From positions 1-64,000 of the forward strand of contig NZ_ATVB01000009.1 in NCBI RefSeq assembly GCF_000420505.1: 64,000 nt of DNA, read 5' to 3'. This document shows, piece after piece, positions 5,467-9,951 of this stretch. The notes beneath the pieces are model-generated. The model did no database searches, was not told the origin of the DNA, and was given only the letters and a program-made list of their open reading frames with translations. The stretch comes from Alloscardovia omnicolens DSM 21503 (GTDB lineage: Bacteria > Actinomycetota > Actinomycetes > Actinomycetales > Bifidobacteriaceae). Made by a program: the position numbers and the translations under genes. The first letter of the stretch is position 1. Each line of letters begins with the position of its first letter.

Positions 5467-5494
5467 CGGTTCGGAAGTTGCTGGTGTATGCGCG

Positions 5495-5533
5495 TGGTGC
5501 TGTTTTGTGGTGCTGTTTTGTGGTGCTGTTTTG
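5495..5533 (+). repeat. Three perfect 13-bp tandem repeats
   Basis: The unit TGGTGCTGTTTTG occurs three times head to tail and is followed by a partial TGG. It lies between the G9 tract and the tRNA promoter. Nothing else is seen in the gap 5406-5552. Confidence 0.9.
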
Positions 5534-5552
5534 TGGCGCGTGGCGAAACGTT

Positions 5553-5642: not shown

Positions 5643-5716
5643 GGGGCCATAGCTCAGTCGGTTAGAGCAAGCGACTCATAATCGTTGTGTCCAGGGTTCA
5701 AGTCCCTGTGGCCCTA
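5643..5716 (+). tRNA. tRNA with CAT anticodon (elongator Met, or Ile2 after lysidine modification)
   Basis: A full 74-nt cloverleaf. The acceptor stem GGGGCCA pairs with TGGCCCT (one G-T at the end). The D stem is GCTC/GAGC, the anticodon stem AGCGA/TCGTT with loop CTCATAA, and the T stem CAGGG/CCCTG with TTCAAGT. Discriminator A is at 5716. The following bases are CCG, so the 3' CCA is not fully encoded. Sequence alone does not settle whether CAT reads Met or, with lysidine, Ile AUA. The loop is shared by both kinds, and Met is the default call. Confidence 0.93.
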
Positions 5717-6005: not shown

Positions 6006-6836
6006 TTATTGCAGAGCAAATTCCTTCTTGGCTTCGTCACCAGAAGAGAAATCGATAGTGCCTTTAACCTCAACGGTTACAGGATTTGTTTCATCTTCAA
6101 GAACATATCCTTGTGTTACCGTATTTGTTGCGCCTGGCTGGAGAGTAGTCATCGCGCTGTTAGGATCGTAACCTTCTGGATTATCCATGTAGATAGCATT
6201 ATTGAGCGATTTACCATTCTGGAAAACTTCCGTATGAATCTCCATGAAGTTAGAATTCTTATTCTTATTGTTTGTTACTTCATAAGTAACGAGTACTGTT
6301 GGCTTACCTTCATAATCAGGATTTGACTTAACAGCGGAAACAATCTTGACTGTGTAGTTCCCGTTATCAATCTTTACGGAACCGTCTGCGCTCTCTTCAG
6401 CCTTTTCGCTCGACTTGTCTGCCTCGGATTTCTGTGGCTTTTCAGTTGTGCTTTCAGCTGTTGCAGAAGAAGTTGTTTCCTTAGTAGCGTCATAAATCGC
6501 CTTTGAAAATGCGCTCTGCATAGCAATGGTAATAACCATAGCGAGAACAGTTAATACCACACCAGCAACAGCGATGTTGTGTCCCTTTTTCTTACCTCGT
6601 TTACCTGTGGCAACAAGACCAATTACGCCGAATACAACGCCAATAATTCCAAGGATAAAAGCGAGATTATTGATAATAGGAATGAAAGACAACACTATTG
6701 CAGTAATACCGAGCACCAAGCTTGTAATAGCTAAACCGCTCGTTGATTTTGCTTCCTGTGCTGGAAGTGGGGCAGGGGCTGCAACCTGTGGCTCAGGCTG
6801 AGGCGCTACTGGAGTTACTTCTGGAGTATCACTCAT
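6006..6836 (-). CDS. DUF4190 / DUF5067-like membrane protein
   Basis: A 276-residue protein of unknown function. Residues 1-30 are proline/alanine rich. Residues about 34-115 hold three hydrophobic segments in the glycine-rich pattern of DUF4190 (GLAITSLVLGI, FILGIIGVVFGVIGL), followed by a KRGKKKG basic turn. Residues about 118-155 form a Ser/Thr/Glu/Lys-rich linker. The C-terminal part (IDNGNYTVKIVSA, VLVTYEVTNN, LQPGATNTVTQGY) fits the beta-sandwich DUF5067/DUF4352 type, presumably outside the membrane. It stands alone with its own terminator. A G10 tract lies 132 bp upstream of its start. Confidence 0.75.
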   Translation of the reverse strand: MSDTPEVTPVAPQPEPQVAAPAPLPAQEAKSTSGLAITSLVLGITAIVLSFIPIINNLAFILGIIGVVFGVIGLVATGKRGKKKGHNIAVAGVVLTVLAMVITIAMQSAFSKAIYDATKETTSSATAESTTEKPQKSEADKSSEKAEESADGSVKIDNGNYTVKIVSAVKSNPDYEGKPTVLVTYEVTNNKNKNSNFMEIHTEVFQNGKSLNNAIYMDNPEGYDPNSAMTTLQPGATNTVTQGYVLEDETNPVTVEVKGTIDFSSGDEAKKEFALQ

Positions 6837-6967: not shown

Positions 6968-6977
6968 GGGGGGGGGG
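6968..6977 (+). repeat. Homopolymeric G10 tract
   Basis: Ten consecutive G bases lie in noncoding DNA between the DUF4190-like gene and the 73-bp repeat array. Read on the minus strand, it is a C10 tract in the upstream region of that gene. Confidence 0.9.
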
Positions 6978-7021
6978 ACGCTGTTTTGCGTATTGTTTCT
7001 GTGTATTGGTTTGCTTTGCTT

Positions 7022-7475
7022 TAAGACTCACAGATGGGCTTGTGTGTGAGTGGTAAAGCTTTTACCAAGGGGTAAGAATGGCATATTTCGGCTTTAACGC
7101 TCACATAAGTCAGCGTGTGTGAATGGTAAAGCATATCGTGGTGAAGCAGGTGTTCGGTTTTCGTTGAAAAATCAAGGAAAGACAATCGGTGTGGATTGAC
7201 TGTTGTGCTGTAACGCTCACAGATGAGCTCGTGTGTGAGTGGTAAAGCTTTTACCAAGGGGTAAAAATGGCATATTTCGGCTTTAACGCTCACACAAGTC
7301 AAGATGTGTGAATGGTAAAGCCTTTACCACCCTGATTTCAGAGGTATTTTCGGCTGTAAGGCTCACATAAGTCCACATGCGTGAGTGGTAAAGCTTTTAC
7401 CACGACCTAAAAATGGTCTTTTTCCGCTGTAACACTCACATAAGTCAGCGTATGTGAATGATAAAGCCCATACCA
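7022..7475 (+). repeat. Six-copy tandem repeat array, 73-bp period, two inverted repeats per unit
   Basis: Units of about 46 bp start at 7022, 7095, 7211, 7284, 7357 and 7430. Spacing is 73 bp except 116 bp between units 2 and 3. Each begins TAACGCTCAC (with variants), followed after 12-16 bases by GTGTGAGTGG or GTGTGAATGG. Most then have the palindrome GGTAAAGCTTTTACC. The linkers are partly conserved (units 1 and 3 share AATGGCATATTTCGGCTT), unlike CRISPR spacers. Unit 2 lacks the second palindrome arm and has a 78-bp linker. No gene is supportable in 6837-7692 outside this array. Confidence 0.92.
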
Positions 7476-7622
7476 ATCCATTTCAGAGCAGCTAAGCTTT
7501 CAAGGTTCACGAATGAGAGGACACGAGTTCAGTGAATCTAAGCGAATCCAAGCGAATAATCACAGCGAGCACAACCATAAGTTCCAAGGTAGTTGTGAGT
7601 GCATAAGTCATCGAATAAACGT

Positions 7623-7664
7623 AGTTATTCACATTGGTTCACAATGTCTTGAAAAATTGATTTT
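7623..7664 (+). promoter_or_regulatory. Tandem DnaA-box-like element upstream of the DUF559-like gene
   Basis: TTATTCACA, one base, then TGGTTCACA, then 14 bases, then TGATTTT. The same 21-bp block with the same spacing occurs at 29638-29679 upstream of ssb. TTATTCACA differs by one base from the DnaA box TTATCCACA. It lies 70 bp before the preferred start at 7693. Confidence 0.6.
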
Positions 7665-7692
7665 CTCAGAAGGAAAAACCAGTATCGATAGT

Positions 7693-8736
7693 ATGAATAA
7701 TTTACAGAAGAACATATCGAGTTTACGAGCGAATGAGAAAAGACGAGTACATTATCCCCATGTTACTGTTCTGCGGTCCGTGGTTATGAACATTGAGTCG
7801 TTCTCAGCAGAAACTCCGCGTTGGCAGATTCGTTATGCACTAAATTTGGCAAGAATTGTGGGCGTATATCGTACACGGAAAAACCTGCAATACTTTACGC
7901 ATGAATCTGCCGTACTCTTACATGGCCTTTCGCCGTGGAACGTAGAGCCTTCAGTTTATGCTGCTACCAATAGCAATCGGCATAAAACAACGTTACCAAA
8001 AGTTACGATTAACACAGAGGTTTTTGAACCAAGAGAATTTCGTCCAACCTTTAGCCTGCAACGCAGCGATGAGTATCTAACAATCGACAATCTTCCGGTT
8101 GAGTCTCTGGAAAATACTGCTATTCGTATGGTTATTTCTCGTCCAGCGGTTGATGCGTTGGTTGCGGTATCCCAAATTCTGCATAGGCTTACGCGATTTT
8201 CGCATTTTCAATGGCAATATTCGCGTTCGTTAGAAAAACAAGTGAAACAGTCACTTCTTGTACGTTTAGACAAGATACAGAAAGAACACCCAAAGTTAGG
8301 TAATTATGACAGAGGAAGAGTACTCATAAACGTAGCCGATGCAGCTTGTGAATCAGCAGGAGAAGCAGCATTACAACCGATTTTATATGCGGTTTTCTCA
8401 GACGCTTTGGTGAGTCAGTATAAGATTCACATGAACGGTCATGATTATTTTGCAGATTTTGCAGTTCCAGAAGTGCATCTCATTATTGAATTTGATGGCG
8501 TGGGAAAAATGGGAACAAACGAACAAGAATTTAATGATGCTCTCCACGCCCAGCTCAATAGGCAAAATGCAATTGAGTCTTTGGGATATTCATTTATACG
8601 TGTGAAGTGGAATGATTTGCTCAATCCAACAGATCTCTACAATCGCTTCGTGAGGTATTCGATGAAAAAATATTCCGATTTTCACCTGCGTAGCAGTACT
8701 TTGAAAAGCTTACTTGAATCAGAAGCTGTTATATAA
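7693..8736 (+). CDS. DUF559 / AbiEi-like protein with a Vsr-type nuclease fold
   Basis: A 347-residue protein. The N-terminal half resembles the AbiEi-antitoxin-like region often found before DUF559: a helix-rich start, then THESAVLLHGL and a beta-rich middle. The C-terminal half carries the DUF559 signature: an acidic helix (CESAGEAAL), then DYFADFAVPEVHLIIEFDG, and an RVKWNDL end, a PD-(D/E)xK-like arrangement. The frame is open back to ATG 7513, but the extra 60 residues are low in family character and would run through the shared upstream element. ATG 7693, with AAGGA upstream, is therefore preferred. Function is unknown; such genes are typical of accessory, laterally moving DNA. Confidence 0.68.
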   Translation: MNNLQKNISSLRANEKRRVHYPHVTVLRSVVMNIESFSAETPRWQIRYALNLARIVGVYRTRKNLQYFTHESAVLLHGLSPWNVEPSVYAATNSNRHKTTLPKVTINTEVFEPREFRPTFSLQRSDEYLTIDNLPVESLENTAIRMVISRPAVDALVAVSQILHRLTRFSHFQWQYSRSLEKQVKQSLLVRLDKIQKEHPKLGNYDRGRVLINVADAACESAGEAALQPILYAVFSDALVSQYKIHMNGHDYFADFAVPEVHLIIEFDGVGKMGTNEQEFNDALHAQLNRQNAIESLGYSFIRVKWNDLLNPTDLYNRFVRYSMKKYSDFHLRSSTLKSLLESEAVI

Positions 8737-8814: not shown

Positions 8815-8909
8815 TGTACACCACGGGGAGCTTGTGTAACAGGCTGAGAGGATGGTACGACCATCGACCCTTGAACCTGATGTGGATAATGCCAACGTAG
8901 GGAAATGCA
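8815..8909 (+). ncRNA. TPP riboswitch (THI element)
   Basis: The conserved blocks appear in order: GGGGAGC, GGCTGAGAGG, ACCCTTGAACCTGAT, and GGATAATGCCAACGTAGGGA. Thiamine pyrophosphate binding should lower expression of the salvage genes that follow. The first gene starts about 200 nt downstream. The stretch 8910-9108 holds a perfect palindrome (AAGTTCC/GGAACTT, 9057-9071) that could belong to the expression platform. No T-run follows it, so control of translation or of a distant terminator is not decided. Small frames in this leader look spurious. Confidence 0.95.
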
Positions 8910-9108
8910 GTGCATATCATTTCGTCGCGGAACGTTCCGTTTCAGGCCTCTCATAAACAACAGGAAACGAAGAAATGTGGCGATGTGTGCTCATACTCAT
9001 ACATTCGCCTCCGTGAGAACAGCTACTGCATCGCCGCATTCCTTCCCACTTTCAGAAAGTTCCGGGAACTTCAGAAACTTTCATGGAGTTACATTAAAGG
9101 GGTAAGTA

Positions 9109-9951
9109 ATGCTCACAGAAATGCTCACGAATGTTCGAGCACACAATCCGCTCGTTCACAACATCACGAATTATGTGACTGTGAACGATTGCGCCAACAT
9201 CGTTTTGGCTAGTGGTGGCTCGCCAATCATGGCAGACGGCATTGATGAAGTAGAAGAAATCACAACAATTTGCGCATCGCTTAACATTAATATTGGTACG
9301 CTTAACGATGCAACGCGCGAAGCAATGGTTCGTGCGGGCAAGCAAGCGAATAAAGTTAATCATCCAGTGGTTCTCGATCCAGTGGGCGTGGGAGCATCAA
9401 CTCTGCGTAACGAGACTATCGTTCAGCTTCTCAAAGAAGTGCAGTTTAGCGTTATCCGCGGCAATATTTCCGAAATTAAGTTCATTGCTGATTTGCTTGG
9501 CCTCGATGTAAATACAGCGTCTCAAAGCCGTGGAGTAGATGCCAGCGATGAAGATAAGGTTACGAAAGACAACCTCAATGAGGCAGCAGCTTTTGCGAAG
9601 GCTATGGCGCGCGCAACTGGCTCGGTTATTGCTATGACTGGTGCGATCGATGTAGTAGCAGATACAGAAAAAGCGTATTGCATTTTCAACGGTCACGCTG
9701 AAATGTCTACGATTACAGGATCTGGCTGCCAGCTTTCTGCTTTACTTGGCTCGTATTTGGGTGCTAACCCAACGACTCCATTAGATGCTGCCGCTGCTGC
9801 AGTTATTGTTATGGGTGTATGCGGTGAGATTGGTCATGAACGCATGACTGATGTAGACGGTAACTCCAGCTATCGCAACTATATTATTGACGCTGTTCAG
9901 CGCTTAACTTCTCAGCAGCTTGAAAACAAGGCACGTTATGAAGTTCGATAA
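9109..9951 (+). CDS. thiM: Hydroxyethylthiazole kinase
   Basis: This 280-residue kinase phosphorylates 4-methyl-5-(2-hydroxyethyl)thiazole, salvaging the thiazole half of thiamine in the cytosol. Family motifs are VHNITNYVTVNDCANI at the N-terminus, PVVLDPVGVGAS near residue 85, and TGSGCQLSALLG near 203, the ATP/substrate-binding loop of the ribokinase-like fold. AAAGGGG precedes ATG 9109. It is the first gene behind the TPP riboswitch and its 3' end overlaps thiE by 14 bases, so the two are translated from one message. Confidence 0.95.
   Translation: MLTEMLTNVRAHNPLVHNITNYVTVNDCANIVLASGGSPIMADGIDEVEEITTICASLNINIGTLNDATREAMVRAGKQANKVNHPVVLDPVGVGASTLRNETIVQLLKEVQFSVIRGNISEIKFIADLLGLDVNTASQSRGVDASDEDKVTKDNLNEAAAFAKAMARATGSVIAMTGAIDVVADTEKAYCIFNGHAEMSTITGSGCQLSALLGSYLGANPTTPLDAAAAAVIVMGVCGEIGHERMTDVDGNSSYRNYIIDAVQRLTSQQLENKARYEVR

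Follow-up and report, generated by a model that had tools for sequence, protein, structure and literature searches.

Correia and ERIC elements are among the MITE-type repeats with which short palindromic repeats can be compared. BOX elements of Streptococcus pneumoniae, present in 125 copies, have the layout boxA-boxB(n)-boxC; target-site duplications are documented for them, and ISSpn2 is their candidate mobiliser; RUP from the same species is a MITE of 107 bp (PMC3049150). REP sequences are extragenic palindromes that often occur as inverted dimers whose spacers measure 20-100 bp; certain spacers agree in length and not in sequence, and the dimers may fold as separate hairpins or as a single one. 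There are also clusters at regular spacing, as in BIMEs, in which the orientation alternates (PMC2817692, PMC3733652). The phyla listed for tagged REPs exclude Actinobacteria (PMC3733652).

We analyzed a repeat array at positions 7018-7467 (+) of the window, i.e., the whole stretch of 64,000 nucleotides under study. It consists of six 42-bp imperfect palindromes (H) in the layout H-L-H-S-H-L-H-L-H-L-H, placed and scored with a model, R2 (Table 1). All H modules can be aligned to one another (alignment A2); they begin with GCTKTAA, end with GRTAAAGC and carry an internal CTCACA...GTGA(G/A) pair. We consider it likely that small palindromic repeats form an interspersed, lineage-specific family and that the array is one of its members, extended in tandem. 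The repeats are probably non-autonomous and mobile. Most likely this is a new family of a known kind (MITE/BOX/BIME-like), rather than a unique regulatory device.

Table 1. Coordinates of the repeat array, its modules and the flanking genes in the window.
Feature	Position	Strand	Evidence or remark
Whole array, six H modules	7018..7467	+	R2 matches; orthologous array in sister species G003, C1:1659452-1659944
H1, 42-bp imperfect palindrome GCTTTAAG..GGTAAAGC	7018..7059	+	R2 40.2 bits
Linker L1, 31 bp, starts TTTTACCA, completes palindrome GGTAAAGCTTTTACC	7060..7090	+	
H2	7091..7132	+	R2 45.2 bits
Linker S, 74 bp	7133..7206	+	26-nt stretch TTTTCGTTGAAAAATCAAGGAAAGAC unchanged in sister species
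H3	7207..7248	+	R2 44.7 bits
Linker L2, 31 bp	7249..7279	+	
H4	7280..7321	+	R2 42.9 bits
Linker L3, 31 bp, GGTAAAGCCTTTACC at junction	7322..7352	+	
H5	7353..7394	+	R2 40.7 bits
Linker L4, 31 bp	7395..7425	+	replaced by 73-bp S-type linker in sister species
H6	7426..7467	+	R2 45.9 bits
Junction-palindrome remnant, degenerate (CCATACCA)	7468..7475	+	
Divergent flanking gene, DUF4190 + DUF5067 protein (context only)	6006..6836	-	Pfam
Flanking ORF, DUF559 protein (context only)	7513..8736	+	Pfam

The preliminary description of this DNA had reported six units with intervals of 73, 116, 73, 73 and 73 bp. These were borne out, its unit starts lying 4 bp inside the H starts at 7018, 7091, 7207, 7280, 7353 and 7426, and its inverted pair was present in all six units as CTCACA...(T/C)GTGA(G/A). 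It contained neither the composition of the 73-bp period, i.e., a 42-bp palindrome plus a 31-bp linker, of which there are four, nor the second linker type of 74 bp, nor the genome-wide dispersal described below. The single 116-bp interval arises because the S linker fills that gap. Tandem Repeats Finder (TRF) gave a period of 73/146 bp over 7207-7475. The further palindrome that had been noted in most units forms at the junction, where the opening bases of L (TTTTACCA) join the end of the preceding H to give GGTAAAGCTTTTACC. It is exact in three units (at 7052, 7241 and 7387), reads GGTAAAGCCTTTACC once (7314), is degenerate once (7460) and is missing after the second unit, where GGTAAAGCATATCG is found instead. 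With up to three mismatches allowed, there were 14 palindrome matches compared with 2.3±1.5 expected, and none of 100 shuffles reached this number. Conservation among the aligned copies is highest at the 8-bp ends of H and at the GGTAAAGCTTTTACC junction.

A search of the same genome with the array as query gave matches on many other contigs, and those that were read out shared the H-L-H architecture, the ends being TGCTGTATC...GATACAGCA. From 20 aligned units (alignment A1) we built a covariance model, R1, which found 24 full-length matches at E<1e-11. Four of these fall in the array, where they overlap, and 20 are spread over 17 other loci. The latter, each about 117 bp long, scored between E 3.5e-26 and 8.9e-12. 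The distance between their two H starts was 73 bp in 14 copies, 72 bp in three and 74 bp in three. Doublets occurred at three loci (C14, C20 and C24) with an inner linker of 74 bp, matching the length of S in the array. Weaker matches and lone H units were also present, e.g., at C4:72985, a near-perfect 42-bp palindrome, and at C4:117559. Close copies were 83-91% identical over about 117-128 bp, and their flanks were mostly unrelated. Indels were rare family-wide: the six closest disjoint pairs differed by 115 substitutions and 5 indels. The inspected copies sit between larger ORFs, which may be convergent, divergent or codirectional, and have no fixed orientation; at codirectional sites, six copies run against the gene direction and two with it. 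The units of the array form a diverged subfamily, so that the dispersed copies probably did not originate from it.

Other repeats were seen at the same sites. A second family of about 170-230 bp with 80-85% identity adjoins four H-L-H elements (L042:1228-1457, L056:1194-1413, L057:1058-1223, L060:1219-1461) and contains an inverted repeat (TCAAAACTGGCAT...) and GGTTGCGCGTATCGACTT. Two further stretches are each common to two intergenic regions of this genome (L044:1278-1458 with L046:1966-1790, and L054:1362-1459 with L059:1397-1494); several repeat families therefore crowd the same sites.

The array had also been described as resembling no named element in its layout. This holds for the sequence family, which has no name, and not for the modularity, in which BOX elements and BIMEs are comparable. 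Like BOX, the family is small, interspersed, modular and MITE-like, with a variable number of tandem middle modules, lone modules, a predicted large hairpin and clustering with other repeat families; the likeness is one of layout, and a relation in sequence would not be expected. Unlike BOX, it uses one palindrome H throughout with two linker types and has no distinct A and C ends, no target-site duplication or mobiliser was found, and besides the array there are 20 elements at 17 loci compared with 125 copies. With REP and BIME it shares extragenic inverted doublets, here at 73±1 bp, and a regular cluster, here of six H. In contrast to these, it has neither a conserved GTAG/CGTC tag nor a detectable RAYT (Y1_Tnp) gene, and H, at 42 bp, exceeds a REP in length and is less perfect. 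GTAG does lie inside the second H of 8 of the 20 aligned copies but is absent from the array units, and no tag is conserved in A1 or A2. The H-L-H unit is short, non-coding, dispersed and hairpin-forming with terminal inverted repeats, as in MITEs: about 100-130 bp with ends TGCTGTATCTTTC...GAAAGATACAGCA, a stable hairpin and intergenic dispersal. It differs from them in that no target-site duplication and no insertion sequence with H-L-H ends were detected, and in its interior, which consists of two palindromes plus the junction palindrome. Because the tests for BOX ends, for the GTAG/CGTC tag and for RAYT all failed, we assign the repeats to a new family of a known kind.

Mobility is suggested by the dispersal, the inverted terminal ends, the intergenic siting and the unrelated flanks of close copies; transposition itself we infer from the dispersal only. 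The basic mobile unit would be H-L-H (about 117 bp), two inverted 42-bp imperfect palindromes 73±1 bp apart. The two H modules of one element are mutually inverted and are predicted to be able to form one long hairpin, in which 81% of the cells of A1 pair and both sides have changed in 15 of 23 pairs. Its covariation was 0.305 compared with 0.197±0.018 in shuffled alignments (0 of 500 reached it) and with at most 0.118 when the register was slid; the local H hairpin covaries less strongly (0.196 vs 0.157). A transposase supplied in trans, since lost or having escaped recognition, probably spread the unit through the genome in the manner of a non-autonomous MITE or REPIN. Tandem multiplication of the H-L module at the array locus, by unequal recombination or slippage, would have followed before the divergence of the two species that carry it, much like that of the boxB modules in BOX. 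What keeps the spacing fixed is probably the need of a mobilising or binding protein, or the shape of the folded hairpin.

Flanking direct repeats were not in excess in 14 copies, i.e., no target-site duplication was seen. Orthologous flanks were found in the sister species for 14 sites, where the intergenic DNA is too diverged to reveal empty sites. Transposases of the Y1, rve, ISL3 and IS256 types were considered. RAYT/Y1 (PF01797) gave no match in this genome, a draft 98% complete, with positive controls, and no rve transposase was found in its 43 contigs. ISL3 was rejected as mobiliser, its inverted repeat ATCTGCGCTAAGTGTGGGTAA differing from the H ends, and the IS256-type matches have no H nearby. 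Because neither a target-site duplication nor a matching transposase was found, the mobiliser may be lost, lie in a draft gap or belong to another family. The single ISL3-type transposase of this genome (L103, G000:C1:66117-66896) is absent from the sister species; a 21-bp inverted repeat unrelated to H flanks the copy (L103:1237-1257 and 2868-2888). At three loci, element-bearing intergenic regions were several times longer than their orthologues in the sister species, i.e., 698 vs 49 bp (L060:1084-1782), 731 vs 141 bp (L045:1046-1777) and 490 vs 138 bp (L047:1305-1795).

The preliminary description had proposed a search for the unit among Bifidobacteriaceae genomes. Two of the 121 family genomes searched matched, this one and that of one sister species of the same genus (G003), and none of the other 119 did, three of them congeneric and 116 from the wider family. 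In the sister species the same two genes flank the orthologous array, and a model search of that genome found no strong copy outside it. Strict pattern scans of genome and viral contigs outside the lineage gave scattered matches in Sideroxydans, Methylobacter, Gynurincola and two viral contigs, which we treat as chance, as R1 gives them 21.5 bits at best. No description was found in the literature on repeats in Alloscardovia and Bifidobacterium, for which most subscription journals were out of reach. The family is thus apparently undescribed and lineage-specific.

The DUF559 ORF beside the array probably has its true start near 7657-7696, the point at which similarity to the sister gene sets in. 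Between the divergent genes, upstream of the DUF5067 gene, lies a run of ten G (6968-6977), which has nine in the sister species; such a length-variable homopolymer could act as a switch. Elsewhere in the window, an ordinary TPP riboswitch (8816-8920, Rfam, 61.2 bits) precedes the hydroxyethylthiazole kinase gene at 9109, and a perfect 13-bp tandem repeat, GTGGTGCTGTTTT, with 3.3 copies (5494-5536) lies just before the tRNA gene at 5643.

The preliminary description had offered three guesses, a cooperative protein-binding array, a structured RNA and a tandemly expanding repeat. The last is the best supported, with the correction that the array is one locus of a dispersed palindromic family. 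We think it unlikely that the array is a structured RNA transcribed from the + strand and exapted from a dispersed repeat, whether as the leader of DUF559 or as a small RNA in its own right. Aligned between the two species, the arrays run gapless over 374 bp with 57 substitutions and without a reading frame open in both; at the right end they differ in the linker between the fifth and sixth H. In the five comparable H stems, 73 of 90 pairs are kept in both species despite 33 stem substitutions, where random placement of these keeps 64.8±2.7 (p about 0.003). Of the Watson-Crick pairs with a single hit, seven turned into G·T and none into A·C as read on the + strand. The numbers are low, however (two-sided p about 0.016), and compensation could be mimicked if quasi-palindromes were corrected by template switching. 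The close dispersed copies evolve without such strand bias, with 13 G·T to 16 A·C among recent changes of Watson-Crick pairs in the long hairpin, nor do copies have a fixed gene orientation. The predicted fold of 7206-7467 is stable on the + strand (z -4.1), but the reverse strand folds equally well (z -5.1). The forward fold was more stable in 18 of 27 elements (median 4.3 kcal/mol, Wilcoxon p 0.006), a set that includes overlapping array units and related, i.e., not independent, copies. No promoter above chance and no terminator were found in the array region; a terminator role was also rejected, copies lying between divergent genes as well. Rfam 15 gave only tRNA and TPP above the gathering score over the window, and we take the best match in the array, RT-17, as chance (23.2 bits vs 40.4 needed). 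The G·U bias together with the stem retention is a hint of something beyond passive mobility at the array. We regard it as a minor possibility that a mobile repeat has become, at this locus, a conserved + strand RNA with multiple hairpins, or a scaffold for phased binding, in which selection in two species maintains the six hairpins and their precise spacing.

Still less probable, in our view, is a cooperative DNA-binding array with a dimer on each H (GCTKTAWC...GKTAMAGC) and modules whole helical turns apart. The helical phasing that had been proposed is no more than consistent with the module lengths of 42, 31, 73 and 74 bp, which all come near whole turns, and with the conserved spacing. 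At 10.5 bp per turn, H makes 4.0 turns, L 2.95 and S 7.05, and the H-to-H distances of 73 and 116 bp make 6.95 and 11.05, although this arithmetic is post hoc. Spacing stays within ±1 bp across 20 diverged copies, and conservation peaks at the H ends and the junction. Over the 374 bp aligned, the array has no indel between the species, compared with 10 indels to 33 substitutions in the neighbouring intergenic stretches; however, few indels are a trait of the whole family, whose six closest disjoint pairs are the fairer control, and at that rate the absence of indels has a p of about 0.08 and is no more than suggestive. Moreover, no binding protein is known for H, and the genes adjoining the copies show no consistent setting. 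A simple tandem repeat found at this locus alone, arisen by chance or in decay, would fit the imperfect units and the lost junction palindrome, but is refuted by the dispersed copies and further opposed by the orthologous array, the stem retention and the palindrome excess; we give it next to no credence. The preliminary description had held that stems disrupted without compensation would point to such a repeat. Alignment of the units instead revealed compensatory change, and because the stems covary and are kept in two species, the array does not point that way. Equally implausible is that a real 93-aa ORF at 7021-7302 (-) sets the length. The frame is present in the window, but it has no Pfam match, and the gapless sister sequence refutes it with stops in all six frames, at least three of them in the frame of this ORF.

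A tandemly extended mobile repeat hence remains our preferred reading. It adds a modular interspersed palindrome family, apparently undescribed, to a lineage for which none was found in the literature searched. As the complete genome of the sister species has the array without strong dispersed copies, the spread of the family and its possible exaptation may be traceable step by step. Should the array prove to work as an RNA, it would illustrate the domestication of a repeat.
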